DNA from: Fratercula arctica
Lineage: Eukaryota; Chordata; Aves; Charadriiformes; Alcidae
Assembly: GCA_947846985.1 (NCBI GenBank)
Contig: CANTUZ010000008.1
Location: 30,000,077-30,064,076 of the forward strand
Direction: 5' to 3'
Length of the DNA: 64,000 nt
Shown piece by piece: positions 12,880-60,876 of the stretch (position 1 is the first letter of the stretch; each line of letters opens with the position of its first letter). The translations under genes and the position numbers were made by a program. The notes under the pieces are model-generated. The model made no database searches. It was not told where the DNA came from and worked only from the letters and a program-made list of their open reading frames with translations.

Positions 12880-15800
12880 GTAACATGCTATTTTTGCACT
12901 TTTTACTCTTGATAACAAGGATCAGATGTGCTCTTACTGAAGATAAAATTATGAGTTACAAGTCAGTATTTGTATGCTTCACAGATGTAGGCTTTCAAAA
13001 CAGTTTATATATCATGGTGTATTTCTCTGTGTGTTTCTGTTAAATTTTCAGCTTTAATGTCCTCCGTTCATTCTCAGCCACTATATGTAAATGCACTTCA
13101 GGCATCTCTCCCTAATCTCAGTCTGATTGATCCTCCTTATAATTCAGGGGTAAGTATGCAATGAAACAGATAGATCCTTTATTTCTAAATGTCGCCAGAC
13201 ACTGAAAGGGGATTCATCTTTGCAGAGCCTAATGAATGAGAGATTGCTAGTAACTAAAATAGTACTTGGTTTATTTCTCTTATTACTTTCATTTGCTGGG
13301 TTTAGGGTCTGATTTAAATCTTCTGACTGAGAAAGATCCCCTTTAAAGAGTTTCTGTGAATTTTTTCCCATTAGTTTGGCATATAAAATCTGTATCTTGA
13401 AAGTTTTTTCTGCTGTTCTGTAGAGTGAAAATTTTGCTTTGACTGTTCTTTGCAAAACATACTCTTCTTCTTTGTACTTTTCAACTTTGCAGAGAAAGTA
13501 GCTTTTTAACTTTGGAAGCTGGTAGTTATGGCTTTTTAAGAAGACCTTTTCAGATTTTTTTTGTGTTTTGTTTTAATCTGATTTTAACAAAGATATCTTA
13601 GTATGTCAAGACATCAAATCTTACTGCATGCAGTATTCTTTATATTTGGGTTAGGTCTGATATTGTGGTAGTATGACCTTAATTAAAGTCTTTAGCTTGC
13701 TAAATGAATTTGATGAGATTATTTCTGTCATGTATTCAGTAAATATGTATGTATAAAGCTTATATACAAGACACCATGATGCAATTTGTCTTTCCTAACA
13801 AAGCCACAACAGCTTTGTTTTCCACACTACTAACAGGAAAGAGTTTGCATTGACTTTCCATATTATGATAATATTGTTATAATTTCCTTTCTAATTCAGT
13901 GGAATTTCCTCCCTGATGCTCTATAGGAAACAAAATTTACAACTTCAGAGCTTTTTGTTTGTTTAGTATTTTAGGGTTTAAGCTTTTCTTTGCTGTTCAT
14001 GGCAAGCTGGTAATTTTTTTCTGAGGAAGAAGGGTTTGGGGGTTTTGTTTGTTTGTGGTTTTGGTAGGGTTTTTTTTATTTGTTATTTTGTAGTTCTAAT
14101 TAGTTGACAGATGTGAATCTAAAATATGTAATCCTTTTATTGAGGAACAAAAATACTATCATGTTGTATTTTGGAACACATAATTATTAATTCTTGAAGG
14201 AGAGAGGGAAAATACACCTTTTCTTTATTTTAGATTCAGAATGTGAACAAAGAAAAACCACAGAATGGACAAAGTTTTACTCTGGGTAAGAGCAGTCTAT
14301 CTGAGTTTTGATAATCTGAAAGAACCAAATGATGCATTTCATTGTATCAGAAGGATTGTTGTTTGATAGTTGTGTTTATGGCTAATTCAGTTGATATCAC
14401 CAGGAGCAGAGAGTATTTGGTACCTCTGAAAACTCAGCCTTGCCTTATTGTTTGCTCTTGTATTTGCTTTGCTTGTGCTGCCAGATCTTAAAAATGTATT
14501 GAAATTGCTTTGGGCTTCCACTGTCACAGCGTTTTAACAGAATAAATAGTTTATTAATAAAATAATGGAAATGGTTGACTGGCTAGCTCTGGAGGCCCAT
14601 GTAGTGCAGCTGTGTCCATTAAGTCTTTAGTAGGAAGTTTTTGTGTCATTTCAGTGGGGGACTCTCAGCCAGGCCAGCCAGGAAGTTGTCTAGTGAGTAC
14701 TAGGTTCTGGTACACACAACCATGTGTGTTGTGTTCTTGATGGAAACCCAAAATACCTCTCAAATATGTTGATTTTTAAGAGTAGTTGGCTGAATTATCT
14801 CAGTGTAGGAGAGGTTGGTTGTTTGTTTATTCTAGTAACAAGAAATGTAGAATGCAATCCAAGTAACATTTTAGAAGTTAAAACTTTGTGTGTGTTTTTT
14901 TTTAAACTCCAGTAGCATACACAGAAACTAAGATGCCCAGATGAGTGAGAACTTGGCTGAACTAGATAGATTCCTCTTTATAACTGATTTGGTGTCAAAG
15001 AAATGTCATTGGTACCTACATACTGAGATTACTTCTGTATGTTTCAACTGCAGCAGAACCAGTCCACATGTCCATTCAGGAATCGGGACCAGTGTCACAT
15101 AAGGTGTGTGCTTGGGCATATGTATGCATGTAAATATAATAAAAACCTCTGCAGGAATTTACCTTAGTTTTCTTTGTGTTTCATTTGGAGATTTCCTTTA
15201 ATTGAATGCAAACAGGATCTGTATATCCATATCTTCCTCAGCCATAAACAGCTTCTATTAACTGCTTTTGCAGAATATATTTTTAATATAAAATAGAAGC
15301 AGCAGTGTGCAAAATGCACGTACATATGATGTGCGCATAGAACTCGCATATTTATTAGTGGAGGCTAAATCAAAATCTGCTGGAAGTCAGAACTCTTGTG
15401 GTCTGCATTGGAAATGGCAGGGCTTCTTGCATGCAGTAAATTTTGTTCTTTATTCTCTCCCCGTCCCTTGCTCTCCAGGTAGAAGACATGCTTTGGGTAT
15501 TAATGACAAGACTGAACTACTGCTATTTTCACTAGCTGTCCTGTAGGCCCAGGAACCAGGGAGTTACCAATAGCAAATCGATTATAATTTTTTGATAGAG
15601 TTGTGATAGAGTCGTGATAGAGTCATTACAGATTATTTAGGAACAAGGCAGTTGTTCCACTAAATAAGGAAATAAGTATTGTTAATAAGCAGTGCCTGTT
15701 TGCATACTGGAAGAACACAAAAGTTCTCTACATTTACTGTGTTGGCAATATGCAAGCTTATAGCTCCTAACATCTCAAAAAGCAGTTACACTTAAGGAAA

Positions 15801-18800
15801 TTAATTTGGAAGTACTATAGAAAGGATTATTGCTGGCATAGCCCACGTCTTTAAAAAGCCCCTCCGCCCCATACAGGTTTGGCTTTTTTGTTGTTGGTTT
15901 GGTCTCAAACTTGCCTCTCTCATTTTTGGTACGGTCTTAATCTTTGTTTAAGGATCATGGTAGTAAGATTGCACAAGGACACAAGAATTAAGCCTGTACT
16001 AGAAATAGGGGAAAAAAATATTACTTTTTTTGTTGTGTAGATAAGAGATACTACATCCCAGTAGATAGACTTCTGCTAGCTACTCTATGGAAAAACAACA
16101 GAATGTAATTGAATAGATCTGAGGTGAATTTGAGAAAAGAATCAAGTCTGCGTGTTATTAATGTAGTATTTCTCCTTCACATTCCTCAGGTGTGTGATGA
16201 TCAATACAGAATGCAAAGTCAACCTTTAGGAATATGCCTGATAATAGACTGTATCGGCAATGACACAGGTAAGTCTCTGGAATTTGAAGTTCCTTATCTT
16301 GTTAATCTCAGATAATTAGAACAATTTGGTATGAAGAATATGATGTACATTTACCAGCCAGACTAGGGTAATGTTGTAGTCAGCTAATCTATCAATTATA
16401 AGAAGTTTTCTAAAGCAGAGAGTTGGAAGGCCCAGCCTGAGGTTAAACTATCCTAACCATTGCAAACAATGGGTTTTTGGGGTTTTTTTGGTGCAGAATC
16501 TCTGAATGAAAGAACTTACAAGGGGACAGACTGAATTTTAGGAGGGAGAAAAAGGATGTTCAGAGGCCAACAACAAAATAGTTAAACTACAGTCATACAG
16601 CAGGTTATTGGCAACGATGGTAAAGATAGTGTTTCCCACCAGTTAACAAAACCAAAACTGTTGTCATTTGAAGCGTAATCATATTGGACACCAGAGATTT
16701 TGAATAGCTGAAGGCACGTGGTCCTTTATTAATAATGCACTTAGGTTTCTGTTACATCTTGCACAGTTTAACTGAAACCATCACCATAGCTTTATAGGGA
16801 AAGGAATTTTTCTTCCTTCCCTCTTGGTTTAGTTTAAAAAAAAAAAAAAAATTGCATGTAGAATTTAACATAGTCGGTGACATGGTTAAAATGTGGGTTT
16901 TTCCTGATTGCCTTTGTAAGAATCAAAAAATTTAGATTCTTGTATAAGCAAAAACACCCTACTCTCTAATAATTGGAACATGTGAAGCTAAAAATAAAAA
17001 TGAGGAGAGTAGTTGCAGCCAGTTCTGTAATAGACTAGGAGATGTAGGGGAAGAAGAGGGTTTGTGGGCATATCTTTTCTCTTTCTCATAACTAATGGTC
17101 CAGCAGATGGACCAACTTAGAGTTATTGATGTAGTTGTTGAAAAGCAGTGGATGCAGAGCACAGACACAAAGTAAAATTTTGATGTTTACTTGACAGTAG
17201 TATTTTAGGTAAATAATATAAAATAAGACACTTAGTTTGCCATTAGAGTAACAGGAACTAGAACTGATTCACAGTCCTGCCATGTGTGAAGAAGGGGGAC
17301 AAAGGTGACACTTAACTCAGTGACATGCAACTGGGAAGCATCCTTGTGATCTGATTTTGGTCTGTCCTACCAAGTTCATCAATAACCTCTGGCCAAAAAA
17401 AAACCAAACAAAAAAACCCAAGGTTTCAATTGCTGTGTGTAGAAATTAAATTGTATGTCTCAGATGTTTAATGTCACCAGTGCATCATCAGCACTTCACT
17501 GAAATATGTTACTGTGCTACTGAGATCTAGGAGAGGTGGGGCATATGGCATTGCTTAAAGCAGCTTTTTAGAAAGACTTCACTACTCTGTATAGTTGTTG
17601 TGCCACACAACTTCTGAAATCTGAAAATACCAAAGAAAGAGAAGAGGGCAAGGAGAACGTTAGGAATTGTACCTGTGGCATGCATTAGAGTCTGTAGCTA
17701 TCCCAAGATTAAATTTGAGGAAGCTGAACCAATAATAGATACTGTAGGATCAAGGATTACAACAATTGAAAATGCCCAGTGTAAACAATATGAATTCATC
17801 AGATGCTGATAAAATTCAAACTGAAATCACCTTGCTGTTTTCCAAGTAGAGTCTTGCTGTTTTGCTTTTGCCTTTCCATTTGGAAGCAAATTTTTATCCT
17901 TACATTGTAAACAATCGAGGGGAGAAAAGGGTAATTTTTTATGTGGAGTGGAAATGCTCAAAAATCAGTGGAGGTTTCTTGGGAGATGACTACTGTTGAA
18001 GAAATAGATGTTTTATCTCAGGTTGCAGCATGTAATGCTGTGTTTCATCTTGCCTTAAAGTAAAATTGCTGTATCCAAAGTTTACCATGTATAATTTCTG
18101 ATTCAGTGTTAAACTAAGGTATCAGCTCTAAGTTTGCTGCATTTAATTTTTTTTAACTGTGACACTTAGAGTGTGTGTATGGTCTAAGGTGACACCAAGT
18201 TTTGTACCTTCGTGTGTATGTGTAGATGCTAGTGAAATAAGTAAATCATAGGAAAAGCTCTCTCGTTGCTGTAACTCTCTTTTTTCCTATGTACTACTGC
18301 CCTCTAATGGATTAAGTGCTTCATCGAGTATATAACAGCTAAACAGTATTAATACTGAATCTTCCACCTGAATTTTGAGAGCATGTTTTATTGCCTAAAA
18401 TAGAGGGGATTTTCCTTTCTATCTCCAAATAAAAAATGTCTGGAAAGTTTTTGAATTATTTTACAAAATTTAATCAAACCAACAGAACTGGAGTGAAACC
18501 ATAGTTTATCATAGTAGAGTTTATCCCCTTGCTATAGTATAGAGTTTGTATCTTCCCTGCTAAGGAAAGTTACAAGTTCTGTTCTTTTTGAGAACAGTGT
18601 GGTAGTATAACTCCTGTTTTGCTTCCAGTTACCTCTGAAATAGCCTCTGCTAATTAGGGATTGTTAAACTTCTGAAGTCAAAGAACAGTCTAGCTTCCTG
18701 TGTCTATAAGGCATTTTACATAAACATGGCACCCGATATTTCCTGTCATATCAGAAACTGTGCTTGGGCAATGTATATGTTGTTTATACTAAAAATACAA

Positions 18801-21258
18801 TGCTACAGGTGTGAGTCATAGTAGTAGTTGTGGTTCTCTGAACACTTAAAAAATACCTGTGGTTTTAACCACCATGTACCTGGTTTCACTGCCATATTAA
18901 TAAACATCCAAAGTAGTTATTCAGAGCATAGCACATTTTCCTGCAGTAGAGGTTAGCACAAATACAACAGGTTAAATCTTGATTTTTGGCTATCTACAGT
19001 TTTAATTTCTAACACATTTTAAAGGGTTCATTTTTCAGCTTTTTTTTCGCCCTTAAAATGCCATTCTGGAACAGTTAAGACTCCAGCGTCCATTCTCCGC
19101 CTGGAACTCATCACTTAAAGTCTGTTTTATATAATAGGAAGTATAAATTACTGCAATAGGTTCCTTTTTGACTGATGAAAGGGAGTCTCTTATGTCCTGT
19201 ATAATAACCATTCATAGTAATTTTGACAAGTCAAAAGGTGAAAAACATCCTGTGCTATCCCGATCACTCCTTACCATTTCAAGAATGTTCTGTGTGAAGC
19301 ATTCTCTAATGTTTTCTCTTGCACAATATTTTAACTCCTAGGAACTTGGGATACTGGTTCTAAATGAAAGCATCAAAGTATCTGGGGAGTTTGGAACGGA
19401 TCACTTGTCAAATAATAGTGTCTTTGCTGTCATGAAGTACATAACTCGTATTAAAGACAACATGCATCTAGCACTATAAGTATGTAATGTACTGTGATCA
19501 ACATCAAGTCCTCCCGATTTTCTAATAAACATTTTGTCACAATATTAATCGTAAATATTTAAAATAAATATTTCCAGTAGCAAAATACTGTAAATGCTGT
19601 AATTCAGAATATTTGAGATTGAGCCTTGATGTGCTGTAATTTAATTATATCTCTCTTTTTTCAGATTTGTTGGAAGAGACCTTCAGAGGCTTAGGTTATG
19701 ACGTTCTTTGTCACAGATATTTAAATATGAATACCATGAGTCAAACATTGCTTGAAGTTGCAAGGTTGCAGAAGCACAGAAATTGTGACAGCTTCATCTG
19801 CATATTGGTCAGCCGTGGAAGTCCTCAGAGCATCTTCTGTACAGACCATACCTTTTCTGGATTCCCTTTGGAACAAATAAAGAAATACTTTACAGCAGAC
19901 TCATGTCCTGAACTCCTAGGAAAGCCGAAGCTTTTTTTTATTCAGAGCTACATTGTGCCAGAAAATGAGCAAGAATGTACTAGTCTGTTGGAAGTAGATG
20001 GTAATGATGAGAAAATCATTGCTAACACAAAAATCCCTTGTAAAGGCAGTATCCCCCAAGTAGCAGACATCTTTTGGAGTCAGTGCAAGGTGGATGTGTC
20101 TACGCTAGAAAAATCTCCAGGATCATCCTCATATTATCTGCGCTGTCTGGCTGAGCTACTCCGCAATCCTCATAAAAGGTAAATAAAACAAAGAGGAAAA
20201 AGAACCCTTTTCCTATGACAGCTTGCTGTGCTAGAGAAAGAGAAACCTTAAGTTTCATCCCATCTGTCCTGAAAAGTGTCTTCATGCTCTGTCATATGTT
20301 AAAAGACAAGTGTACCTGATGTTGGAATGATGGCACAGGAAGGTAGTCTAAAGTAAGAGTGAAGTTTCTGATTCTGGATAGTAAAATGAAAGTGTTTTAT
20401 GGCAATGGGGCTTGCAGAGTGAGAAAGGAAGAACCTGTCCTGGGTAATGTATGGCAGTGCTTTAGACAGGATTGGAAATTTTCCTTCTCTGAGGTTACGA
20501 GGCACACACAGGCTTCTGCCAAATTGAGCATTGCCTTTTATCATTAGGAAGGGCTCTGCTTGCAAATATAAAGAATCAGTGCCTAAGTGTGGGGGGAAGG
20601 CAGATGAATGGGAAGAATTTTGTCCTTTCTTTAGATCTAATTAACCTACTGCTCAGGGAGCCACTAGGTTGCTAATTTGTAATCTTGAATATAAACTATC
20701 AGAAAACTTTAGTCTGTCTAAAGAGATTATCAATAGGAATTTGAGCAGATACGTTTAGATATGTAACTTAACAACAAAGGTTTTCCTTGTACAATTGATC
20801 TACCAGGGAGTTAGCAACTGTTTTTCAAAGTAGTTGTGTTGTTAACATTTAGTACCTTTTTACAGACCCTAAAACCTTGTAATGAAATCACAGATCATCA
20901 TATCAGCATAACCAATATCACAACGGCGATATGAGTTATAATAGATTGTTTACAAAATGTATGTTCAGCCTTGGGTTTTAGAGGTGTAACCTCTGCAATA
21001 AAGACTGAAATCTGAAACGTTCTCCTTGCTGAGCCTAAAGTTGTCTTCTCTCTTGTGGATTCTTAAAAGGTGTCTTACTTCATTCTCTAATAGAAAGCTT
21101 TTTACTTTTGTTGCTGCAGGAAACTCTCTATATTAGATATCCATACAGAACTAAACAGAAAAGTCTACGAATGGAATAAGACCACTGACCCAAGCCAACA
21201 ATACTCACTTCTGCTCCAGCACACACTGAGGAAGAAACTTTTTCTTTCTCCCACTTAA
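10590..21258 (+). CDS. CFLAR: CFLAR (c-FLIP long form), catalytically dead caspase-8 homologue, 9 coding exons
   Basis: The CDS joins 10590-10885, 11722-11827, 12744-12879, 13052-13149, 14234-14285, 15054-15103, 16190-16268, 19665-20178 and 21120-21258. This makes 1470 nt, 489 aa (human long form 480 aa). c-FLIP acts in the cytosol at the death-inducing complex, where it pairs with procaspase-8 through DEDs and the caspase-like domain and tunes apoptosis, necroptosis and NF-kB output. Identity rests on two DEDs, close similarity to vertebrate c-FLIP in every exon, and the characteristic loss of catalytic His and Cys. The start chosen is ATG 10590. A GTG just upstream is in frame but is not a normal animal start. 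All splice sites are GT-AG and phases agree. The gene heads a + strand cluster with CASP10, CASP18 and CASP8. Confidence 0.95.
13052..15103 (+). other. CFLAR: CFLAR linker exons 4-6, with a tandem NAGNAG acceptor
   Basis: Three short exons (13052-13149, 14234-14285, 15054-15103) encode the poorly conserved linker, about residues 180-246. They are supported mainly by clean splice sites and by phases 1-0, 0-1 and 1-0 that keep the frame. The exon 6 acceptor is CAGCAG (15051-15056), so splicing 3 nt downstream would drop one Ala. If the donor after exon 4 is read through, four residues and a stop follow (TGA 13162-13164), giving a 216-aa DED-only protein similar in size to human FLIP-R. Confidence 0.75.
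15594..15626 (+). repeat. 11-bp unit repeated three times
   Basis: The unit GATAGAGTYRT occurs at 15594-15604, 15605-15615 and 15616-15626, with one or two mismatches. It lies in CFLAR intron 6 and looks like a small minisatellite. Confidence 0.7.
16190..21258 (+). other. CFLAR: CFLAR caspase-like domain (exons 7-9), inactive
   Basis: Exon 7 opens the p20-like subunit ([13 protein letters not shown]). Exon 8 holds the inactive site. The position of the catalytic His is Arg323 (VSRG), and the position of the catalytic Cys is Tyr368 (FFIQSY in place of the caspase QACQG). The caspase-8 cleavage motif LEVD-G is kept, with Asp384 (codon 19997-19999), matching human Asp376. Exon 9 encodes the p10-like C terminus, ending [10 protein letters not shown]. 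Intron 16269-19664 is 3.4 kb with no further exon seen. Confidence 0.93.
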
Positions 21259-44025: not shown

Positions 44026-45839
44026 ATGAGTGCAAACTTCCACAAACTCCTTTTTGACATTTCTGAGGCTTTGGTCGCAGATGAACTGGCAGCTCTGAAG
44101 TTCCTCAGCCTGCAGTACATCCCCACGGGGAAGCTGGAAGCCATTCAGGAGCCCAAGGCCTTCTTCAAAGTGCTGCAGGAGAAAGGCATGATCGAGGCAG
44201 AGAACCTCTCCTTCCTGAAGGAGCTGCTCTACTGGATCAATCGAATGGACCTCCTGGCCGCCCATCTGGGCTCCAGCCGAGAGGAGATGGCGAGGGAGCT
44301 TCAGATCCCAGGCAGGGCAAAGGTGTCAGCCTACAGGTAAGCACAGAAGTAGTAAACCTTTGCATGCAGAATGTCCAACAGTTCTGTTGTGTATTGTCTT
44401 GTTTTCTGGCTGCACCATTGTCTTTTGAATATGGCGGCATCATTGTATTTATTACAGCATGACTACCTGCCATTTTGCAGTTTTACATTTTGCAGTTCAA
44501 ATGTGTAATTGCGGTGTTTATTTCTCATAATTTCATTAATCAGTCTCTCTTTATTCTTTATTGCCAGGCAACTGCTATATAGAATTGCAGAGGACTTGAC
44601 TCCAGAAGATGTCAAGTGCGTGAAGTTCCTGCTTCAAAAAGAAATGCCAAAGAACAAGCTCCAGGATAATGCTGTATGGAAAGTGATCTTGATACGTTTC
44701 TTGCAAATCTAGTTCAGAGTCTGCTAGTTCTTGTAAGAAGAGAGGAAAGAGAAAGCAGTCTGTTCTCACTAAAATCTGTTGTTGAAAGAATTGGGATGTT
44801 AGCTGATAGCTGCTGTGTGAAAGAATGGACCCCTTTTTTATCTCATTGTATCTTTTCTCTGCCCTTTTTTGTTCTCCTGTTCCTACTTTCCCTCCACTAC
44901 CTGTCTCCCTAAACTTTTCTTCTTGCAAAATCCATCATGCTCTTCCTTTCATCTTTGCTTGGTGTTTATAAGACATTTGTACATATGCTGTACCTAGGAA
45001 GAGTGATGTTTGCTGGAGGAGAAACAAAGTTTTGGAGACAGAAAATCTAGTTCTAATGTGAGTTCAACCACAATTTTTGTGTGTCTTTGGGTATGTTTTC
45101 TTCTTTATTGTAATTTGGGGTAACAGCATTTTGTTAACTTCCCGGCAAAAGTATTAAGAGGTTTGATGAGCTAGTTTAATACTTGTATTGTAAATAATGA
45201 ACGTGCTATTAAAATGCTTGATGTTGTTAAGAAGATATTATTGTCTGCTATTTGTATTGTGACACCTATAGGAAAATTATCAGACTTACCTCCAACTTGG
45301 TGGACTATGGAGATTTAAAAAACAAAATTAGCCCTGAACACCCTTTCTGTAATAGAAAATGTAAAATGGCACAGCTAAATGACTTAACTGTACTTCATCT
45401 CAACCCAGAGACACAACAGGATGCCATGATGTTGTCCACATCAGTGCTTTGCAACACGGCAGGATAACCTAGCCATAGGCAATTTCTAATAATCCTGTCT
45501 TTACCTTAGTGATCTGTTTCTTCAGTTGCATTGCATCCTGGCACTTGTTTTAATGAGGTTTGGAGGAAAAAGAAATTGGTCTTTAGCTGGGCTGTCTCTG
45601 GGAATGAGGATGTTGTCTTCTGCTCTATTCAGAAGTGCCCGATACTGCAGTTATTGAAGGTCACTCTATGAGCTTGGGTTTTGTGTTTTTGTTTTACCAG
45701 TCAATGTTGAAGGTCTTACTGGAAATGGAAAGAAATGAGATAATTAAAGAAGATGACCTGGCAGCGCTGAAAGATATATTAAAGCCATTTAGAGCTGATG
45801 TAAAGAAAAAAATTGATATCTATGAAGAAAAAAAAAAAG
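44026..45839 (+). other. CASP18: CASP18 tandem death effector domains (exons 1-3)
   Basis: DED1 spans about residues 1-103, with LKFLSLQ and RxDL (RMDL). DED2 spans about 104-185, with VKFLLQKEM. Exon 1 is GC-rich from about 44086 onwards, unlike all later exons of this gene. DED2 ends in a very lysine-rich stretch (about residues 173-185), and the exon 3 donor is preceded by a run of nine or more A. Confidence 0.9.
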
Positions 45840-48800
45840 GTAAATTATTTAATCTGCTGTTTAAGAGGAGAGATGAGGTGTTTTTTGTGATTTTTGTGGC
45901 TCCATCCTTGGCAAGCCAAGAATCCAGAGGTAAAAGACAGACCTTACAGTATCCTAGGACAGGCAGAGGAGCTTTTGGTATCTGTGGTTTCTGAAGTTTT
46001 CTGCTACTTCCTTATCCCATCATACCTACCTGTATCTCCTTGAAATACATTCTATGCCTTGTAAATGGTCTACTTTTCCCTCCTCTTTGCCTTAAATGCA
46101 ATTTTTCTCTTCCGGAAACCGTGCAGTGCTGGTTTTGGACCATGATACTTTTTCAGTCATGAAAGGGACTGGAAGTGACAGTTGCCTTGGGGAAACTTGT
46201 CAGCTTTATTTCCTGTTAGCCAGGCTGTTTGCTCTTAAGTCAAAGGAAAAGCCCCTGGAGACCAGGTATTTGGCTAAAGTCTAACCATTAGCTTTCTGTA
46301 CCAGATGTGAAATTTTAAGGACTTCAGTATATCCGAGCTGTCGCAGCTGAGGTGGTGACTTGTGACACCACAGCTGGGCCTTACTCTTTGGGAAACAGGA
46401 TACATTAACCAACAACTGAGACCTATTAAATCTTTCCCCAGAACCTTCTTTTGGATGACTCAGGACGTGTGTTTCCTTAGATACATCTGTACAGCTTATG
46501 TAGGTCCCTGCAGAGATACCAGCTAGTTTCCCCAGCATGTCTTTGTGCTGATGACCTGTGCTTGTGTCTCTAAAAGAGCAGAAGAAAATTGCCAAGGGTG
46601 CCTAGTGTGAGCTAGTGTAAGTGTCAAGGGAATGGCTTTTTAGTAGTATTGTTATTATTTTGTCCCCCTTGATAAGTAGACAAAGCGCATGTCTTAAAGA
46701 TCTTGTTGCCCTGACAATTACCATTTAAACACATCTGTGTAACGTGCAAAAGGGGTACTGTGATTTATTTCCTTGGCTGCAGTCATGGGTTTGATGATTT
46801 CAGGCAGTTGTATTCAAAGAAGTGTTTGGTTGCTTTCATTATGCTGGTATTTTCCATCCTTGGTGTGTCCACCCAAACAGTCAATTTCTCTGGAAAGACA
46901 ATGGCCTCAGAAGTAAATGAACTAGCTGTAATGTACCACTGTACAAAAATGGATCTCCTCTTTCACTTACGTATCCCATAGTGGGGATGCTAGCAAATGG
47001 CTTGCCTGGGGTGACTACTCACATTCAGCCTTTTATTATCTGGATCTTGCTACCAGTAAAAAAGCAGAGAAGAAACGGAGCACAGCTCTGCACAGCTTCA
47101 ATAACCAGCAGCCTGTGAAACTGGAAGCCTGCTTGGCCCAGCTCTACAAAATGATGGTGTCTCAGTGATGTCAAAACCACCCTCCACTTCATGCCTCATA
47201 CTGTTTTTTATGAGTGTTGAAATATGCACAGTGGAAGATTTATCTTTTTAGTTCTAAAATGTTCTATTTATCTTCTCCCTCTTAGAAAATGATTCTAAGG
47301 AAAAACTCCACTATCCAGTGCCTGTGTCTGTGCATCCATCAGGACAAGGAGCAGAGGGAGAGACACCACACCTGGTGAGGAATACCTCAAGATTACCTTT
47401 AAAGTATTTATCCAGCTCCGGGGGAAGGGTGAGGGGACATAAATTCTTAAGACTAAGGAGGTGGAAAAGCTGAAAGGGAAGAGTTCTGTCTTTATATGTA
47501 AGCCTTGGAACAATTCCTATTTTCAAAACAAGGCCAAGCCTTGTTCCTTTTTGAAGACCTGGCTGTCAGAAACCTTTTAGGCAAGAAATGAAGAAGTAGC
47601 TGCTGTGTGAAGAAAACCAATCTTAATGATAATGGAGACTGAGACATTAAAGCCCTGGCCAGTATACTCTTGGACAGATGGGAAGGGAACCACAGAATCT
47701 GCTACCTCACTAGAAACCCACAAGGACTCTCAGAGGGAATGATACAGTGCAGGAACTTTTCCTCTACATGTGCAAATTTGTGTTTCTGGATATACGCTTT
47801 CTCCCATGCCAAAATCATATCCTAACCACAGAAACAGAGGAGGAGGGATTCAGGGAGACAGAGCAGATTCCTCTCCACTGTATCTAGGTTGTATTCTTAG
47901 GCTTTTCCTTTCTTGTATCTTGACCCTCATGATTTTTTTGCACTTGTACATGAAGGACCAACAATCTGTGTATAGCATATTTCTCTTTTGTGTGCTTGTC
48001 GCGGCTTTCTTATCTGCTTTCTTTGTTTCTACAGCTTGTGGAATCATATAAGATGAAAAATAACCCCCATGGTTACTGTGTGATTCTTAACAACCACATT
48101 TTTAAAAATCCACATGAAGTCAGAGAAGGAACATTGAAAGATGGAGGTAAGTACTTTTTTATTACAATTACTGGTTTGTTTTTTCTGTGCTATAATTATC
48201 TGAAAGAACTATCTAATCTTTCCTGTGAAGAAGAATCATGTCCACTGAGCTTCTTTTGTTACTCCTCAAGAGTAACTGTAATAACAGTCACTGTAGAAAC
48301 TGGAAATATGCCACTTCCAACACTTTAGCTGATGGCTTAAAGAAGGAACCACTTTCTGTTCTAGGTAAAAAGCATCGTCTTAATTGGTCATATATACCAA
48401 ATAGTGAAGAATACTGTTCCACCTTCTCACTTTTTGATTGTTTCTAATTCTTGGCTATCATGGAGTAATATTTTTAAGTCCTTAAATTCTCTTTAATGCT
48501 CAAATGAATGCTACTGCTTTGTAAATTACCTTAAAGCCTGACTTCCTGCAAGAGTCACTTTTAAGATAAACAGAAGTTTATCTTAAAAGATAAAACTCCT
48601 CTTCCTTCTTGCTGCATTGATCATTCTCAAAAAATGAGGGACCTACTTCATCTAAGAGTGACAGAATTTGTCATTCTAAAGAGGTACCTCTTCTTAACTT
48701 TCTAAGTCTTGTTCTTAAGCATCTGAGATTACTATGCAATGTGCAGTTAAAGCTTTTTTTAAAGCAGTAATTTTGCTATTTTGTGAATTTCACTAATTTG

Positions 48801-50449
48801 TACCAATTAGTGTTTTTATATAGAGTGATGCTTAACCCAGTTGTATTTGAAAAAAATAAAATTAGGCATTCGAGTTTTTCTAACTAGATTCGGCAATCTA
48901 AGAGTCAGTCAGGTGAGTTTATTGGTGGGATCTAAACATCTCTGCTAATATCTGTTCTACTACACAGACACTGATGTTTCAGCATCTTCCTTGTCACTGT
49001 TTATGTTTAACAAGTGCCTTCTGACTTTTTTTCCCAGAGGCTGTGAAGAGGGTCTTTGAGTGGCTTCAGTTTGAGACAGTTGAGCACAGGAATCTAGAAG
49101 CAAAGCAAATGTATGCTAAACTTAAAGAATACAGCAAAAAAGATCATAGTAACATGGACTGTTTTGTTTGCTTCGTTTTTTCCCATGGTGAAAAAGACAA
49201 AATACAAGGCGCTGATCATGAGCTTGTAAATATTAAAGATTTACTCTCCTGCTTCAGTGGATCTAATAGTCCTTCTCTTGCTGGCAAACCCAAGCTGTTT
49301 TTCATCCAGGCTTGTCAAGGCTCTGTAGGTCATCCAGCTGTCACAGTAAAAGAAGACTTTTCTGGCCATCTTGAGATGGATGCTGCCCCTCTGACTTCCA
49401 TTCCTGATCAGTCAGATACTCTCGTTGGCATGGCTACAGTGAAAGACTATGAGTGCTACCGCTGTCCAGAGACTGGCAGTATTTACATTCAATGCCTCTG
49501 TAAGAAGATGGAGTTGCTTTGCCCGCTGTAAGTACTATTTTTAATCCATGTACATTTGGGCTATTGCAGACTTACATACTTAAGCATGCTGTGCTGAAAC
49601 GTCAGTGTTTTGCATTTGTGCTGTAGAATGCTTTTCACCTGTAGGGCAGTGCAGAACAGTAATTATTCTGGAATTGGGCATTGTTATTCTTCTACAGATG
49701 AACCAAAGTACAAGTGACTTCTCCTAGTTTGCCTGTGACAGAATCAAGGTTGTAATGCTGGAACATTAATATATAAACTAGTGTGTGCATGTTTTTTAAC
49801 ATTTTTTGACTGATAAACGATTTTTTTTCCAGCGACAGCTGATGAGAGGCAAATTTGTTGAGTGATTACACAGACAATAAAATCACTGTTCTTTAGTCAT
49901 AATTTTCATTGTTCCCTCCCTCCCATCCCCATCATAAACTTGATTTAGAAAATAGAATTTCTCTTCAAGCATCACTTTCTCATAGTTTCCAGAAAAGGGC
50001 TTGGAGAATACATAGGTTTGGTTCTGTTTCATTTTAGTGCGCTCTTCTGCCTATAACCAAAGTAGGTGACTGCCTTTGCTGGTAAAGCGATGCTACAGGG
50101 AGGTTGGTTTTATTCCCCCCAAAATACCGCATTCAGTGGTTACACAATGGAGCCTGCAATTTCAGTGACAGACAGGGTAAGGGGAAGGTACTAGCCTTCC
50201 CTGAGATACCACTTTACTGGAGCAAACATAGATCAGCTCCTTGGACTAGCTGCAAGTACCATGTATTTCAATGTAACTTTTCTTCATTTTTGTTCAAGCC
50301 GCAAGGATCTCATGACCATCCTGACAGAAGTGAACAGGGAAGTGGGAGGAAGAGTATTAAATGGATGGAAGCAGATGCCAAAGATAACATCAACCCTTCG
50401 GAAGCAATTGATCTTCCAAGTTCCACAATCTCAGTCAACTGGAAAGTAG
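44026..50449 (+). CDS. CASP18: CASP18 (caspase-18), caspase-8-like initiator caspase, 7 coding exons
   Basis: The CDS joins 44026-44336, 44568-44673, 45701-45839, 47286-47374, 48035-48146, 49038-49527 and 50299-50449. This is 1398 nt, 465 aa. Caspase-18 is a DED caspase described in birds, reptiles and marsupials and lost in placental mammals. Its natural substrates are not well known. It is placed here by position between CASP10 and CASP8 and by an intact protease domain that is clearly different from both. Exons 2-7 are well diverged from CASP8, but exon 1 is almost a copy of the CASP8 first exon (see findings). The exon starts at about 44007, after the acceptor at 44005-44006, so there is probably an untranslated upstream exon. 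It has fewer linker exons than CFLAR or CASP10. An alternative reading as a CASP8 duplicate unique to this lineage is less likely. Confidence 0.87.
48035..50449 (+). other. CASP18: CASP18 protease domain (exons 5-7)
   Basis: The large subunit begins PHGYCVILNNHIF. The catalytic residues are His302 in FSHGE (codon 49184-49186) and Cys345 in QACQG (codon 49313-49315). The inter-subunit cleavage motif is LEMD-A, with Asp367 (codon 49379-49381). The pocket differs from CASP8 and CASP10: the usual WYIQ reads IYIQ, and DFLLGMAT reads DTLVGMAT. The Arg of the S1 region (CYRCP) is kept. Exon 7 begins RKDLMTILTEVN in place of GEDILTIL and ends with a 10-residue polar tail. Confidence 0.88.
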
Positions 50450-54664: not shown

Positions 54665-55379
54665 GGTGGGGACGGGACTCTGGTTTTAGATCAGTGCCTA
54701 GACAGAGAGAACACTGTTTATTTGGAGAGCTTGGATGCTCTGAGGGTGGCTTTCCTGCTCAAGGTGAGCACCAAGGTGTTAACGTTTGCTTCCACACGGA
54801 TGAAATGCCAACTGGTAAAACATCTTCCCTCCTATTGTGAAATACCATCTATTGAGAGTGCTGCACCAGAAGGTGTGTCAGAGGTGGTGCACCATCCCAG
54901 GGTCTTACGCCCCCGCGCAGTGCTGCTGCGAGCCCGCTCCTGTTGCTAGAAGGGTCTTCAGCCGATCTGGGAGGGCTGGGAAGGGAGCTGGTTCCGTGGC
55001 TGGGCGCTGTTAGGGCAGGGGGCCGAACACCCGCATTGAGCGTGCTGCGTTGCTTGCCAGCAGCCCCAAAAAGCTCGCAGGGAGGAAGTCGAGTCAGTGG
55101 CCTTATGTATAAGCTTCTTTCTGTGTGTATTAAAAATGGTAATGAATTGTGATGCCTTTAAACTAGAGAGAGGAGACTGCGGGCAAAGCCACGGCAGGGG
55201 GAGACCTTTTGACCTGCACCCGTGGGTTCAGTTTTCCCAAGAATGGACTCAGGAATAGTCAGTGCTTCCCCACTGTGAACGGGGGGGGGCGGCTAAAATG
55301 CCCCTGAGAGAAGTCCTCTCTGTCAGACGCACAGGTTTTAAGTCTGTGGGGTTTGTTTAAGTCAGAAATCCAGAGGGAA

Positions 55380-55880
55380 CTACATCTCCCAGGGGCCCCG
55401 GCGCCGCCTCCTGCCCGGCGGAAGCGCGGCGGGAAGCGCCCTGCGCCTTCCCCCGGGCCGGCGCCGCCATGGAGCTTCCCAGGCAGCGGCTGCTGGTGGT
55501 CGGCGAGGAGCTGGGCGAGGCCGAGCTGGCGGCTCTGAAGTTCCTCAGCCTGGAGCACGTCCCCATGAGGAAGCTGGAAGCCATCCAGAAGGCACAGGAC
55601 TTCTTCGAAGCGTTGCAGGAGAAAGGCATGATCGAGGCGGGGAACCTCTCCTTCCTGAAGGAGCTGCTCTACCGGATCAGTCGGATCGACCTCCTGGCCG
55701 CCCATCTGGGCTCCAGCCGAGAGGAGATGGCGAGGGAGCTTCAGATCCCAGGCAGGGCAAAGGTGTCAGCCTACAGGTGAGTGGCCGGCGGCGCGGCGTC
55801 AGCGGGCGGCCGGGCCGGGCCTCGCCTCACCCGGGAGCTGCCTCCCGGCGTCGGCTGCCCTTCTCCCGTGCTCGGCCCAG
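55380..55880 (+). promoter_or_regulatory. CASP8: CpG island over CASP8 promoter and first coding exon
   Basis: GC and CpG density is high from about 55380 to 55880 and covers the ATG (55469, in a GCCGCCATGG Kozak context). The transcription start is probably in the first 90 bp of this block. No TATA box was seen. Confidence 0.65.
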
Positions 55881-57774
55881 GCTTTGGCCGGCCATTTGAA
55901 CTCCAGGCTAAGGTTTGGAAGCACACAAGCACCTTTCAAGGGAAAGCGGGTACAAGCCATAGGGAAAGTTGAAATTTCTGTCCCGTAGAAGGGAGGAAAC
56001 TAAAGCCGCACCTTTCTGAAACACTGGCGAGCCCCCGAGGGCCTCCCTGCCCGGGTGGTGAGAGCAGCGGCTGCCTGTGAGTCTCTGTCCTCAACTCCAG
56101 AAAGTTTCAGCGTGGTTTTGATTTGAGGAAAACAGAGATCTTTTTAATTGCAGCTGAAAGTGGTTTGACTTCAGGCTGTTCTGGGACTGATGTCCCCCCC
56201 GGTTTAAAAGGGAAAAAAAAGGGAGGGAGGGGGGTGAAGGTGGCAGTTCAGCAGTCCGGTGTTGAGTTGTGCTAAGGGACATGCTTGGGAACACGATGAA
56301 ACAGTGTCCTCCACTTCTCTTTCTAGATATCTGCTCTTTCAGCTGTCAGAAGACATCACTGAAGATGAGCTGAATTCTTTCAAGTTTCTGTTGGGGAAAG
56401 AATTACCAAAATGCAGGCTAAACCCTAAGACTGTAAGAATTTCTTTCATCTTTTTTTTTTTTTTTTAAATGATTATTATAATTCCTAGATGCATTTGGGT
56501 TGCTATGAGGGGAATGAGTGTTACTCTTCTTGTGGCATCACTGTTCCTATGGTGAAAACACCATAAGAAAAGTGGTGCACCTGGAAAGGGGTTATAGGCT
56601 CTCTGGTGCGTATGCGAGTTGTCTGTGTGCAGCTTTTGCAGCAGCGTCCTAGTGCAGAGAGCATGGGCCAGCCCTGCACCGGGCACAGAGGCCCTTCGTG
56701 TCCACGCAGCGTATGGGGCTTAAGGGACTCAGTGGCTTTGATCAATGGAAGATTGATGAGCACATTTGCTCATCTTGCCCAACTGATTTTCTTTTGGCTG
56801 CTTTCTAAGCCATTATAAAACACATAAAATCACCCACCGTGGCTATTACTTTATGCTTTTCTTCTTTTTATTTCCAAACTCAGAAAATACAAATCTAAGC
56901 AGCAGATCTTTACCAAGGCTAATGCCCAAGAGCCTGGAGTTTATAAATAGCCTCGTGGTAGATGCAGCTGCTCTTAGACTGTCTCAGCCTGCAGTTCTGA
57001 CTGCTGGGTACTTCGTTCTGTCTCATGAAAACTCTTGTAGCAGTTTCCCTCTTTTCTTAGAGGAGAGACTGTCTGCTGGTAATAGCTGCTAGTGAACAGC
57101 TAGTGATAGCTGTTCTGTTGGGGTGACCACTCACTGTTTGGCAATAGCTCCTGTTCCTTGGGTCCCCTTTTGTATCAAAGCAATCTCTACACCATACTTG
57201 CATGGTTATACCCATTTTTGCCATTGCTCATGATGGTGACTACAGTGATACTTGTGTTTCAGTTAAGTGCACAAGATAGACACTGGAAGTCAAATGAATG
57301 AAAGCAGTCATTAAAAATTACATTACATATTCCTGTATGATCACCATTAGTTCTCCTGGATTAGATCTTACTAGATCTTGGTGTCTCTGAGCTGCAGGAG
57401 GGAAATGAGTATGTTTTGAAAACATATTTGTACTTACAGTACTTGTAGGGTTTGTTGAACTAGGTTTAATTGACTCAGCTGAGGTCTCAACTGAGCTACC
57501 AGTCAGCTGGACTGACTGCGGGTCGCATGTGCTGTCAGTATATTAAAGCTTAGGTGCACATGCACATGCTGCAGCGTCCCTCCCAGTGGCAGCATGGATG
57601 TGCCCTAAGAGCAAACTACCTCTCTGATTACCCAGACAATGCTCGACGTTTTCATTGAGATGGAGAAGAAGGGGATTTTGGGAGAAGACAACCTAAGTAT
57701 GCTGAAGCGTCTCTGTGCAGGAATTAACATCAGCCTGTTGAAGAGAATTGAAGAGTATGAATTAAGCCTATTTG
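55469..57774 (+). other. CASP8: CASP8 tandem death effector domains (exons 1-3)
   Basis: DED1 covers about residues 1-102, with LKFLSLE and RxDL (RIDL). DED2 covers about 103-184, with FKFLLGKEL, whose Phe-Leu pair corresponds to the human Phe122-Leu123 surface needed for filament growth. The 3' 89 bases of exon 1 plus the GT donor are identical to those of CASP18. Confidence 0.92.
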
Positions 57775-60700
57775 GTAAAACAAAACAAAAAGGCCTCTTT
57801 CCCATAGTTACTCTTGAAGTCACATATAGATATCATACAGGACTGATAATGAATGCTTTTCAGGTAAAGAAGAGATGCTCATCACAGAGGAACAGAGGGG
57901 CAGCACAGGAGGCCCTGAAGGTAATGGAAACTCTCAAAAAATTAATGCTTAGATTTTTCACTCTTCTTCAGCTTTTGGACTCTCTACACCACTTGCATCT
58001 CACTTCTTTACATGGGTGCCTTTCTAAAAAGTGATCAAGTATCCAGCTACTTACTGATAACAATATATTTTACTTCCTTTAAATTGATTATCTAGTGGTT
58101 TATAGCTAACAGGAACAGCCATTCAGCCACAATTCAGTGTTTTCAGAGAACAGTTTTACCCGGGGAGGTATGCGTGGAGATAGAGAATAGGAACAGAGCT
58201 TCTCTCCTTTCTCTAGTGCTACATTCTGTACTTAAACTTTTTTGTGTATATTCAGCCCATGCCACATGGCTGGCGTCGTCTGTGTCACCTGATTCTCCTG
58301 GCAGTTGGAATGAATCTTCCCAGGTAAGGCAGTTTGTTTCTTAGAAACATCATCATTTTGTCTTAGAACAGATCATCCCTCCATGAGGTGAACAGTTATT
58401 ATGTGAGCCCAACTGTTAAAAGCACCATCTAGAAACAGAAAAATGCACCACTCTGTAACATCCTTCATTCTGAAACTAAGTCACAGGCAGCAGCTACTGC
58501 AGTGTTAAAACTTCAGAAACATTTGCAAGGGTAGCAAGATGGACCGAGTTTATTATAGCAGGAAATACGCAGTTGGCAGATGGCTGGGCAAGAAGCGGGT
58601 GAGCGCAGCACCCCGTGTGGGCTGAGCATGATGCTGTGGGTCCATGGGGGGGCTGTCATGCTGTGCACAGGCTCCCAAAGGTGATGGGGCAGTGCATTGC
58701 CAGGTCCTGGGGCAAAGCTGTACAGGGAGAGCTGCCTAGAGAGAAAGCCAGCTGGTTGGTTGCCCTGCCGTGCCACTAGCAAGGGCTGAGAAGCACCTGG
58801 AGGAGAGTGTAGTAATTTCACCAATATTCTTTCTTTTCATCAGCTCGAAGCTTACAAAATGACTAGCCGACCCCGTGGAGTGTGCCTGATCCTGAATAAT
58901 CACAGTTTTGCAAAAGCCAGGGAAGCAGTGCCAGAACCCAAACACTTGAATGATCGGAATGGGACAGATGTGGATGCAGGTACAGTGAATATTAAAGATG
59001 AGTTTGTGTATCTTCAAAAATAGAAACCTAATTTATTTTTCTGTACTAAAGGTCTGAATTTCAATTTTCCCCTCCTCGGATACTTTTGTTGTAGTGGCTG
59101 AATCAGCTCTGTTTCCTGTGCTGACAAACCCTAATCCATTTGTCAAGCTTTTACTGTCTGACTCTGAGTTTACAGCAACCTCAGCCTGGACTTTGCAAGC
59201 TAGGCTAGCTTTGTGTCAGCCTTATGCTTACTACTTCTGAAATATGCAGAATCAGAAACAGATTTGCTACTGAACTAGCATTTGGTGTTAGTTGTTTAAT
59301 GTACAACTTCAAAAAAAAAAGGGCAGGAAGGATGTTGGAATTTAGGGACTCAATTACCTTGCTATTCAGGGGTCCTGATTTTAGCAGGCTGTCCTGCGGC
59401 AGCAGCAGCATAGCTCATTGCAGGTCCTAGGCTCTGGGATATGGGTGTATTTGCACTGTCTATGCCAAGAGATAAAATCCATCAATGGGCCTTCCCTGAT
59501 TGAATTAAACTTTTGAACTCCAATTTAATTAGAGACTCAGAGTGCAAGGTTTCTCTTCCTTTGACACAAGTGGGCGGTGCCCTCTGGTCCTGGGTAAAGC
59601 AACTGCACTGTTAACACCGTGTCAGTCAAGGGACTGGCTGTAAAGTGGATGGGGGAAAGAGATACAGCTTTCTTAATAGTTCTGCATGCTTTCCAGACAG
59701 AGGCAATACTAAACAGCAAGATTGCAAGGAAGACTTTTAGTGAGAGTTAAGGGAATTCCGTAGAGATATGATTAGTAATTAGACTACTAGATTATTTTCA
59801 GAGCAGGAATGTAACTACCTGGATAGTAGTGCAGCAGAATTAAAAAAAAAGGTCGTTCATCTCTAGAAATGCAATTTGCAATTGCAGATTGCAAATTCCA
59901 TGTAATGAAATGGCTCCAATTCCCCTTCTGTTTACTTTCCAGCGGCTCTGAAAAGAGTTTTTAGCAAGCTTCATTTTGAAACAGAAGAACACAGAAACCT
60001 CACCGCAGAGGAAATCCGTAAGATTGTGAACATCTACCAGTGCAAAGACCACAAGGACAGAGACTGTTTTGTTTGCTGTATCCTGTCTCATGGGAAAAAA
60101 GGCATTATATATGGTGTTGATGGGCAGGAAGTACCTATCCAGGAACTGACCATTTCTTTCACTGGACAGAATTGCCGCTCACTTACTGGAAAGCCAAAAG
60201 TCTTTTTTATTCAGGCCTGCCAAGGTGATGCTTACCAGCAGGGGGTGACCGTCGAAACAGATTCTGGAGAGCAAGATTCTTCTGTAGAAACAGATGCAAG
60301 ATTTCAGCTCGACTGCATCCCCGCAGAGGCAGACTTCCTCTTGGGCATGGCTACCCTGCCAGATCACGTTTCCTTCAGAAGCCCGACGCGGGGGACCTGG
60401 TACATACAGGCATTGTGCCAGCACTTGGACTACAGCTGTCCTCGGTAACTATGTTTCCTTAAGCTGCTTCTTGCCAACGTGTATTTTCCTTCTGAGTGAC
60501 AGGAGTTTGATTTGGATGCAGAGGTAGATGATACGCAGTGTGAGTGCTTGCTCGAGTGAAAACAATAATATAGGACAGAGCAATACTGTGCAGATTTTTC
60601 AAAGCAGCTTAGCCAACTGCTTTGAAGCCTTTTTAAGATGGGAGCCATTAGTACTGGTGTAGATCAAGATATATGAGAATGTGGTAATTTTTCTGATGTT

Positions 60701-60876
60701 AACAGCCTCCCTAATGCAAAACATACCTGTGTTTTTGCAGTGGAGAAGATATTCTCACCATCCTGACAGCAGTGAATCGAGAGGTGAGCAGAAAGACTTG
60801 TGAGCCGAACGCAGAGAAGCAGATGCCACAGCCCAGTTTCACATTGAGGAAAAAACTCATCTTTCCTGTCAACTAA
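55469..60876 (+). CDS. CASP8: CASP8 (caspase-8), initiator caspase, 8 coding exons
   Basis: The CDS joins 55469-55776, 56327-56432, 57636-57774, 57864-57920, 58256-58323, 58844-58979, 59943-60444 and 60741-60876. This gives 1452 nt, 483 aa (human 479). Caspase-8 is the main death-receptor protease: it is recruited by FADD, cleaves effector caspases and BID after Asp, and restrains necroptosis by cleaving RIPK1. Close matches to mammalian CASP8 include [35 protein letters not shown] and [10 protein letters not shown]. Unlike CASP18, the start codon lies inside a CpG island. Exon 4 is 57 nt with equal phases at both ends, so it could be skipped without a frameshift. It is the last gene in the cluster. 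Confidence 0.95.
58844..60876 (+). other. CASP8: CASP8 protease domain (exons 6-8)
   Basis: The catalytic residues are His321 in LSHGK (codon 60089-60091) and Cys364 in QACQG (codon 60218-60220), equivalent to human His317 and Cys360. The inter-subunit linker has two VETD motifs, with Asp378 (VETD-S, same place as human Asp374) and Asp389 (VETD-A). [14 protein letters not shown] and TWYIQALC form an ordinary caspase-8 pocket. The last exon ends [10 protein letters not shown]. Confidence 0.93.

Follow-up and report, generated by a model that had tools for sequence, protein, structure and literature searches.

Recurrent concerted evolution of the DED1 exon in the CASP8 and CASP18 genes of birds

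Segmental concerted evolution of gene pairs is a known phenomenon. In mammals, BMP8A/B, DDX19A/B and TUBG1/2 have been homogenised segmentally for more than 100 My in the species examined (PMC2720389, accessible part). Partial concerted evolution has also been described for TLR1/TLR6 and CCR2/CCR5, for which a shared binding or heterodimer surface was proposed (cited in the accessible part of PMC2720389). The CASP8/CASP18 pair of birds resembles the former in that nearby paralogs are homogenised segmentally and have a mosaic structure, and the latter in that it is an immune pair with one region homogenised and another diverging. Unlike the mammalian pairs, CASP8 and CASP18 are homogenised in a single coding exon and share about 43% protein identity elsewhere. 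The screen that identified the mammalian pairs demanded at least one similar intron, whereas the introns of CASP8 and CASP18 are unrelated; the pair falls outside this rule, which is a screening criterion and not a definition of conversion. Unlike TLR1/TLR6 and CCR2/CCR5, CASP8 and CASP18 share an initiator-caspase death effector domain (DED) that contains a short gene-specific island.

Caspase-18 is present in chicken and zebra finch (accessible parts of PMC2779465, PMC5965869 and PMC2865498), and the genes analysed here agree with the caspase-8/caspase-18 family described in these papers in gene order and in the tandem DED and caspase domains. The casp8, casp18 and casp10 genes form a cluster in gar, coelacanth and chicken (PMC5965869, accessible part), which makes the paralogs much older than the similarity of the exon reported here. 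Within the accessible parts of these papers, PMC2779465 speaks of gene conversion once, in conjecturing that fish card-casp8 replaced casp18, zebra finch CASP18 is reported without the term (PMC2865498), and PMC5965869 does not mention it. A search of titles, counts and abstract openings, with the subscription literature mostly outside its reach, returned no description of DED1 exchange between CASP8 and CASP18. An initial annotation of the DNA studied here had proposed that the first DED exon of CASP18 was gene-converted by CASP8; the finding is real and larger than was proposed, and represents a new, unusually sharp case of segmental concerted evolution.

The caspase array and its homogenised tract

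The window, a 64-kb stretch of the Fratercula arctica genome, carries CASP10, CASP18 and CASP8 as a tandem array, all on the plus strand, with one copy each of CASP18 and CASP8 within it. Gene models and tblastn identify CASP18 by its two DEDs, its caspase domain with QACQG and its position between CASP10 and CASP8, and a tree of exons 2–7 shows that, exon 1 apart, it is an ortholog of the CASP18 of other birds. The CASP18 model (seven exons, 465 aa) has an intact frame and intact GT/AG junctions, the CASP8 model (eight exons, 483 aa) has an intact frame and splice sites, and the CASP10 model closed once one small exon had been added. The closest relatives were the CASP18 of Uria aalge (94% over the whole protein, among the best 120 of 1766 matches) and the CASP8 of Rissa tridactyla (98%, among the best 120 of 1682). 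In both genes exon 1 encodes DED1 and ends in phase 2, and the two first exons lie about 11 kb apart. Upstream of the three caspase genes, at 10716-21246, there appear to be CFLAR-like exons, most of them weak matches, to which we presumptively give this name from gene order. One of them, a caspase-like exon at 19670-20161, has FIQSY at the site of the FIQACQG of caspases, presumably as expected for an inactive cFLIP. The features of the two genes are as follows.

44026-44336, plus strand: CASP18 coding exon 1 (DED1), from the gene model, with a phase 2 end
44026-44085, plus strand: opening 20 codons of CASP18 exon 1, outside the homogenised part in this genome (DNA identity, GC3, within-clade shuffle)
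44086-44336, plus strand: homogenised DED1 core of CASP18, codons 21-104 (21/251 differences, pS, GC3)
44149-44160, plus strand: gene-specific island of CASP18, codons 42-45, EPKA (overlap of residue distributions)
44248-44338, plus strand: 91-base stretch identical to CASP8, GT donor included (exact comparison)
44568-50449, plus strand: CASP18 exons 2-7 (DED2, linker and protease with QACQG), not homogenised and serving as internal control
55001-56000, no strand assigned: GC- and CpG-rich, CpG-island-like stretch around CASP8 exon 1 (bin counts)
55469-55776, plus strand: CASP8 coding exon 1 (DED1), the partner and probable original source (gene model)
55526-55776, plus strand: CASP8 counterpart of the homogenised core, with the identical stretch at 55688-55778 (exact comparison)
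55589-55600, plus strand: CASP8 counterpart of the gene-specific island, KAQD
56327-60876, plus strand: CASP8 exons 2-8, not homogenised with CASP18

By exact comparison, the two cores differ at 21 of 251 bases (about 22 in the initial annotation), and the 91-base identity that runs through the GT donor was found as first described: the base right after it differs, and the introns beyond appear unrelated. Neither exact comparison nor blastn of the two loci found any intron similarity between CASP18 and CASP8. At its 5' end the tract has an equally abrupt edge: the 20 codons before it in CASP18 have 40% DNA identity with CASP8 over 19 aligned codons, a divergence that matches the rest of the genes. 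The remaining exons are 36–60% identical in DNA and 24–55% in protein, and the two DED2 exons, at 40% and 36% in protein, do share well under half of their residues, as had been noted. In a blastn comparison of the two loci (E up to 1e-3), the tract was matched over 259 bp at 91%, and the only other match was a weak one in the catalytic exon (202 bp, 65%). CASP10 exon 1 had a blastn match to neither CASP8 nor CASP18, and CASP10 appears to take no visible part in the exchange.

The tract stops at a splice junction, as it would if a spliced (cDNA) template, and not the neighbouring gene, had been the converter. A genomic tract limited by homology would, however, stop at the same place, given that the introns are unrelated; a CASP8 cDNA could at times have converted other exons, and neither DED2 nor the protease is homogenised; and the two genes lie close together in tandem. 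A cDNA template is thus a very improbable source, and conversion by the neighbouring gene is preferred.

Silent sites set the tract apart. In the window species, pS is 0.118 (7/59) in codons 21–104 versus 0.752 (169/225) elsewhere (Fisher p 4e-19), and pN is 0.078 versus 0.370 in 352 aligned codons of the other exons. Silent sites outside the core are saturated. A normal dS in exon 1, which would have counted against conversion, was thus not found in the window, where the dS of the tract is far below that of the rest of the gene. The 21 core differences comprise 15 replacements and 6 silent changes, the seventh silent change in the codon counts being the exon-2 base of split codon 104. The GC content of the tract is 0.59. 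GC3 in CASP18 rises from 0.45 over its first 20 codons to 0.82 in the core and drops to 0.40 across the remaining exons; the corresponding values for CASP8 are 0.95, 0.85 and 0.51, against 0.46 for the core of CASP10. The two 500-base bins that make up 55001-56000 hold 28 and 35 CpG, with GC of 0.59 and 0.64.

Identity in the codon alignment runs for up to 89 bases, whereas 20,000 shuffles of codon order gave runs of at most 41. The core differences are unevenly placed, with 21/162 bases in the 5' part and 0/89 in the 3' part (Fisher p 7e-5, all sites); synonymous sites alone give p 0.07, which is not enough to establish the contrast. In this charadriiform lineage, the last 91 bases of the exon probably mark the latest conversion tract.

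Own-paralog similarity across birds

The comparison across birds was based on proteins, namely the best 120 of 1766 CASP18 matches and the best 120 of 1682 CASP8 matches, the latter being proteins with a CASP8 body. Genes were assigned by the part after exon 1, in agreement with the search set for 240/240 proteins. The bird CASP18 orthologs (P0001-P0120) are named CASP8 or caspase-8, and chicken P0056 also 'initiator caspase'; CASP8 and CASP18 are confused in public annotation. Both genes were available for 46 bird species, window included (45 species for residues 1–20); the silent-site evidence comes from the window species and the other 45 are represented by proteins. A rule on the first residues dropped 19 of the 120 CASP8 models. 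By the author's reading of scores and names, 12 of these have a CASP18-type start (P0145, P0147, P0163, P0167, P0169, P0171, P0177, P0216, P0217, P0226, P0232 and P0234), and the other seven are galliform CASP8 and probably genuine (P0197, P0205, P0206, P0211, P0212, P0219 and P0223).

In the DED1 core, the identity of a species' two paralogs averages 0.828, versus 0.751 with partners shuffled among species (0/2000 shuffles). There is no such excess in DED2 (0.366 versus 0.365, 636/2000) or the protease (0.484 versus 0.484, 497/2000). Residues 1–20 have a small excess (0.345 versus 0.333, 1/2000), which is also present in two other sets described below (19/5000 for the large-contig species and 0/2000 for 49 species). 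Own-paralog core identity ranges from 0.64 in Climacteris to 0.99 in Baryphthengus, and in 33/46 species the CASP18 core resembles the CASP8 of the same species more than it resembles CASP18 orthologs on average. An earlier pairing rule gave 0.820 versus 0.753 for 43 species (0/2000), but lost the ratite, Anseranas and most galliform CASP8, the first 20 residues of which resemble CASP18. With three galliform pairs restored (49 species), the core gave 0.828 versus 0.747 (0/2000), DED2 775 and the protease 402 shuffles.

These values could in principle be produced by an artefact of assembly or gene prediction, with one exon 1 collapsed or given to both genes. Among the matches listed, 12/120 CASP8-body proteins carry a CASP18-type N-terminus and at least two (P0177 and P0234) look mosaic inside exon 1; in P0234, on a contig of 2421 bases, the first part of the exon is CASP18-type and the last part CASP8-type, possibly an assembly mosaic. 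The CASP18-type starts perhaps come from models built on assemblies that lack the GC-rich exon 1 of CASP8, although read-through splicing, the phase being the same, may be the alternative. An artefact is nevertheless highly unlikely as the source of the core signal: models with CASP18 starts were removed before counting, the window copies differ at 21 sites and have distinct first 20 codons and introns, and the excess persists when the set is cut to the window and 14 species whose two genes are on equal-sized contigs larger than 19 Mb (core 0.847 versus 0.765, 0/5000; DED2 2235/5000 and protease 1531/5000, no excess). The assembly collapse that the initial annotation had named as a possible refutation is likewise argued against by this set.

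In five-residue bins taken to residue 200, residues 1–15 have no own-paralog excess, each bin between 16 and 105 has one (0.01 to 0.19), and the bins starting at 106 deviate from zero by no more than 0.02; the excess ends at the exon 1/2 junction. As the excess is confined to about residues 16–105, the tract edges seen in the window are general. Parallel adaptive change, in which both DED1s independently follow the same changing partner (FADD, for example) in each lineage, would suit a homogenised stretch that coincides with a domain-coding exon, and a common docking assembly is possible; it leaves the alike silent sites and GC3 unexplained, and residues 1–15 belong to the same domain without having an own-paralog excess. 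We hold it to be very unlikely. Stronger purifying selection on DED1, with no conversion at all, might be suggested by the good conservation of its 3' half with solved caspase-8 chains. This is contradicted by the silent sites, which are alike as well (pS 0.12 versus 0.75), and conservation among orthologs is no higher in the core than in DED2 (0.784 and 0.785 for CASP18, 0.773 and 0.794 for CASP8). Purifying selection also predicts neither the own-paralog excess nor the shared rare residues described below, and is barely credible.

Trees of the 46 pairs agree with repeated conversion. The tree of exons 2–7 separates the 46 CASP18 from the 46 CASP8 rows with one change of gene label. The core tree requires 18 such changes, 7 of which are forced by starred branches; this is not a count of events, given that the alignment has 84 columns and 52/89 inner branches are open. 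Shuffled labels need a mean of 31.0 changes, with 0/500 as low as 18, so the core retains part of its gene history and homogenisation is incomplete. Forcing CASP18 into one clade makes the core tree 164 log units worse and is rejected (AU p 0.0012). The predicted species grouping of exon 1 and gene grouping of the other exons thus appear as a strong tendency in the proteins of 46 birds, tempered by some gene grouping within the core.

The core has 57 rare residues that a species' two paralogs have in common, spread over 33/46 species, a clade-wide residue being scored once for each species; 20 control pairings gave a mean of 5.5 and a maximum of 11. The counts for DED2 (2), the protease (10) and residues 1–20 (2) lie within their controls. 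For example, A89 is common to the two paralogs in 7/7 charadriiforms sampled, and Q37 and I76 in 3/3 palaeognaths; Baryphthengus has L63 and W89 in both of its paralogs, and Rhynochetos has H82, P85 and K90.

Such residues bear on the timing of the transfers. A single ancient conversion in the bird stem, followed by slow divergence, would account for the cross-species paralog identity of 0.75 in the core, already above the 0.43 found elsewhere, and for the several clades with little later exchange. Later events are, however, required by clade-private residues in both paralogs and by shuffling within nine clades (36 species), in which the core remains in excess (0.820 versus 0.790, 0/5000); residues 1–20 (2697/5000), DED2 (2643) and the protease (1874) have no excess in this shuffle. 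A single event is therefore most improbable; repeated transfer between the two exons is well supported, and the process is recurrent concerted evolution. Palaeognathae, Coraciimorphae, Gruiformes and the pelican-gannet-heron-shoebill group contribute most of the within-clade signal. The excess is modest in Charadriiformes (0.808 versus 0.788) and very small in passerines, parrots and cuckoos, while swifts, hummingbird and owlet-nightjar have none (0.737 versus 0.737). Signs of recent exchange are thus few or absent in swifts with hummingbird, passerines and parrots. The passerine CASP8 DED1 (e.g. P0203, P0224, P0233, P0238) forms a long branch of 0.32 with support of 100, own-paralog core identity in passerines is 0.64–0.73, and exchange seems to have largely ended in this group.

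Source, direction and the gene-specific island

A third search, with the DEDs of ostrich CASP8 (best 120 of 471), brought in the CASP8 of turtles, gharial and tuatara, giving 15 CASP8 models from 10 genera (14 models for the protease). Their mean identity to bird CASP8 and bird CASP18 is 0.59–0.66 and 0.62–0.68 in the core, 0.56–0.68 and 0.33–0.39 in DED2, and 0.70–0.77 and 0.47–0.49 in the protease. As reptile CASP8 is about equally close to both in DED1 alone, the DED1 of bird CASP18 is of CASP8 type. No reptile CASP18 was found among the examined matches (best 120 of 1766, 1682 and 471). Ostrich CASP18 matches the caspase-8 chain 8ybx_A, presumably human, at 51/84 core residues and at 24/73 in DED2. 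In residues 1–20, reptile CASP8 is nearer to bird CASP18 (0.46–0.58) than to bird CASP8 (0.30–0.34), and an early transfer may thus have spanned the whole exon, the start of Neoaves CASP8 having changed later. In three Chelonoidis CASP8 models (P0263-P0265), CASP8 exon 1 is followed by WALYH or WVALYH instead of YLLFQ, perhaps the DED2 of another paralog or an alternative exon.

GC3 and reptile CASP8 thus make CASP8 the likely original source of the DED1 core. The initial annotation had named CASP8 as the donor, which stands for the origin but not for the later copying, which, to judge from the distribution of a few residues, went in both directions. The derived CASP8 block AQD (43–45) is complete in the CASP18 of six Neoaves, Eurystomus, Bucco, Bucorvus, Baryphthengus, Indicator and Pelecanus, probably as a result of a few events of copying from CASP8 to CASP18. 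The CASP8 of Steatornis carries the CASP18-type block and that of Podargus shares an altered, CASP18-like block; both suggest copying from CASP18 to CASP8. Breaks at the CASP8 CpG island would make CASP8 mostly the recipient, an expectation contradicted by some clear cases of copying from CASP8 to CASP18.

The block belongs to a gene-specific island. Among 42 Neoaves pairs, only 4/84 core columns have residue distributions with an overlap below 0.5 (50/82 in DED2), and these four are adjacent, residues 42–45 being EPKA in CASP18 and KAQD in CASP8. A rule based on differing majority residues gives six columns instead (32, 43, 44, 45, 49 and 99). The chance that four random columns of 84 adjoin is 4e-5, although the adjacency could alternatively reflect one early change missed by later short tracts. 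Counted along the alignment, residues 42–45 are about residues 40–43 of 8ybx_A, presumably near the start of DED1 helix 3. These four residues are likely to tell CASP18 from CASP8.

Mechanism and meaning

Overall, recurrent two-way interlocus gene conversion has very probably kept the DED1 exons of CASP8 and CASP18 alike as birds radiated, leaving the two proteins with similar docking domains; DED2, the protease and the introns meanwhile diverged by gene. The old tandem paralogs would have exchanged the exon repeatedly by ectopic conversion, most simply the ordinary meiotic process. Conversion would halt at the exon edge because homology persists only in the exon: the introns are unrelated and cannot pair, so tracts have to end there, and the exon stays similar enough to pair because it is repeatedly converted. 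The CpG-rich CASP8 exon 1 may act as a stable recombination site, as expected since birds are without PRDM9 (PMC5519329, accessible part). Zebra finch non-crossover tracts average about 32 bp, with gBGC of 59%, and are enriched at CpG islands (PMC12047795, accessible part).

Selection may tolerate or favour a common DED1 surface, so that both proteins join one FADD/CASP8 assembly, with the four-residue patch kept gene-specific. Structures indicate that CASP8 DED2 binds FADD and that DED1 then binds cFLIP, older models having placed DED1 on FADD (PMC11074299, accessible part), and a shared DED1 could let CASP18 join the CASP8 assembly under either model. The search of titles, counts and abstract openings returned no experiment on the entry of CASP18 into this assembly. 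It is possible, though we hold this more specific proposal to be doubtful, that selection maintains the DED1 exon as a common interface cassette for FADD/CASP8/cFLIP assembly but expels conversion from residues 42–45 (EPKA versus KAQD), which would encode gene-specific assembly, and that the events come from a hotspot, free of PRDM9, at the CpG island of CASP8. To our knowledge, the role of the CASP18 protease is poorly studied.

Trees of bird caspases that are based on the prodomain can mix the two genes, and call for caution. The pair amounts to a natural experiment: across birds, two old paralogs have repeatedly exchanged a single exon while its surroundings diverged. It provides a testable case for distinguishing conversion that persists through a hotspot from selection for a common protein surface.
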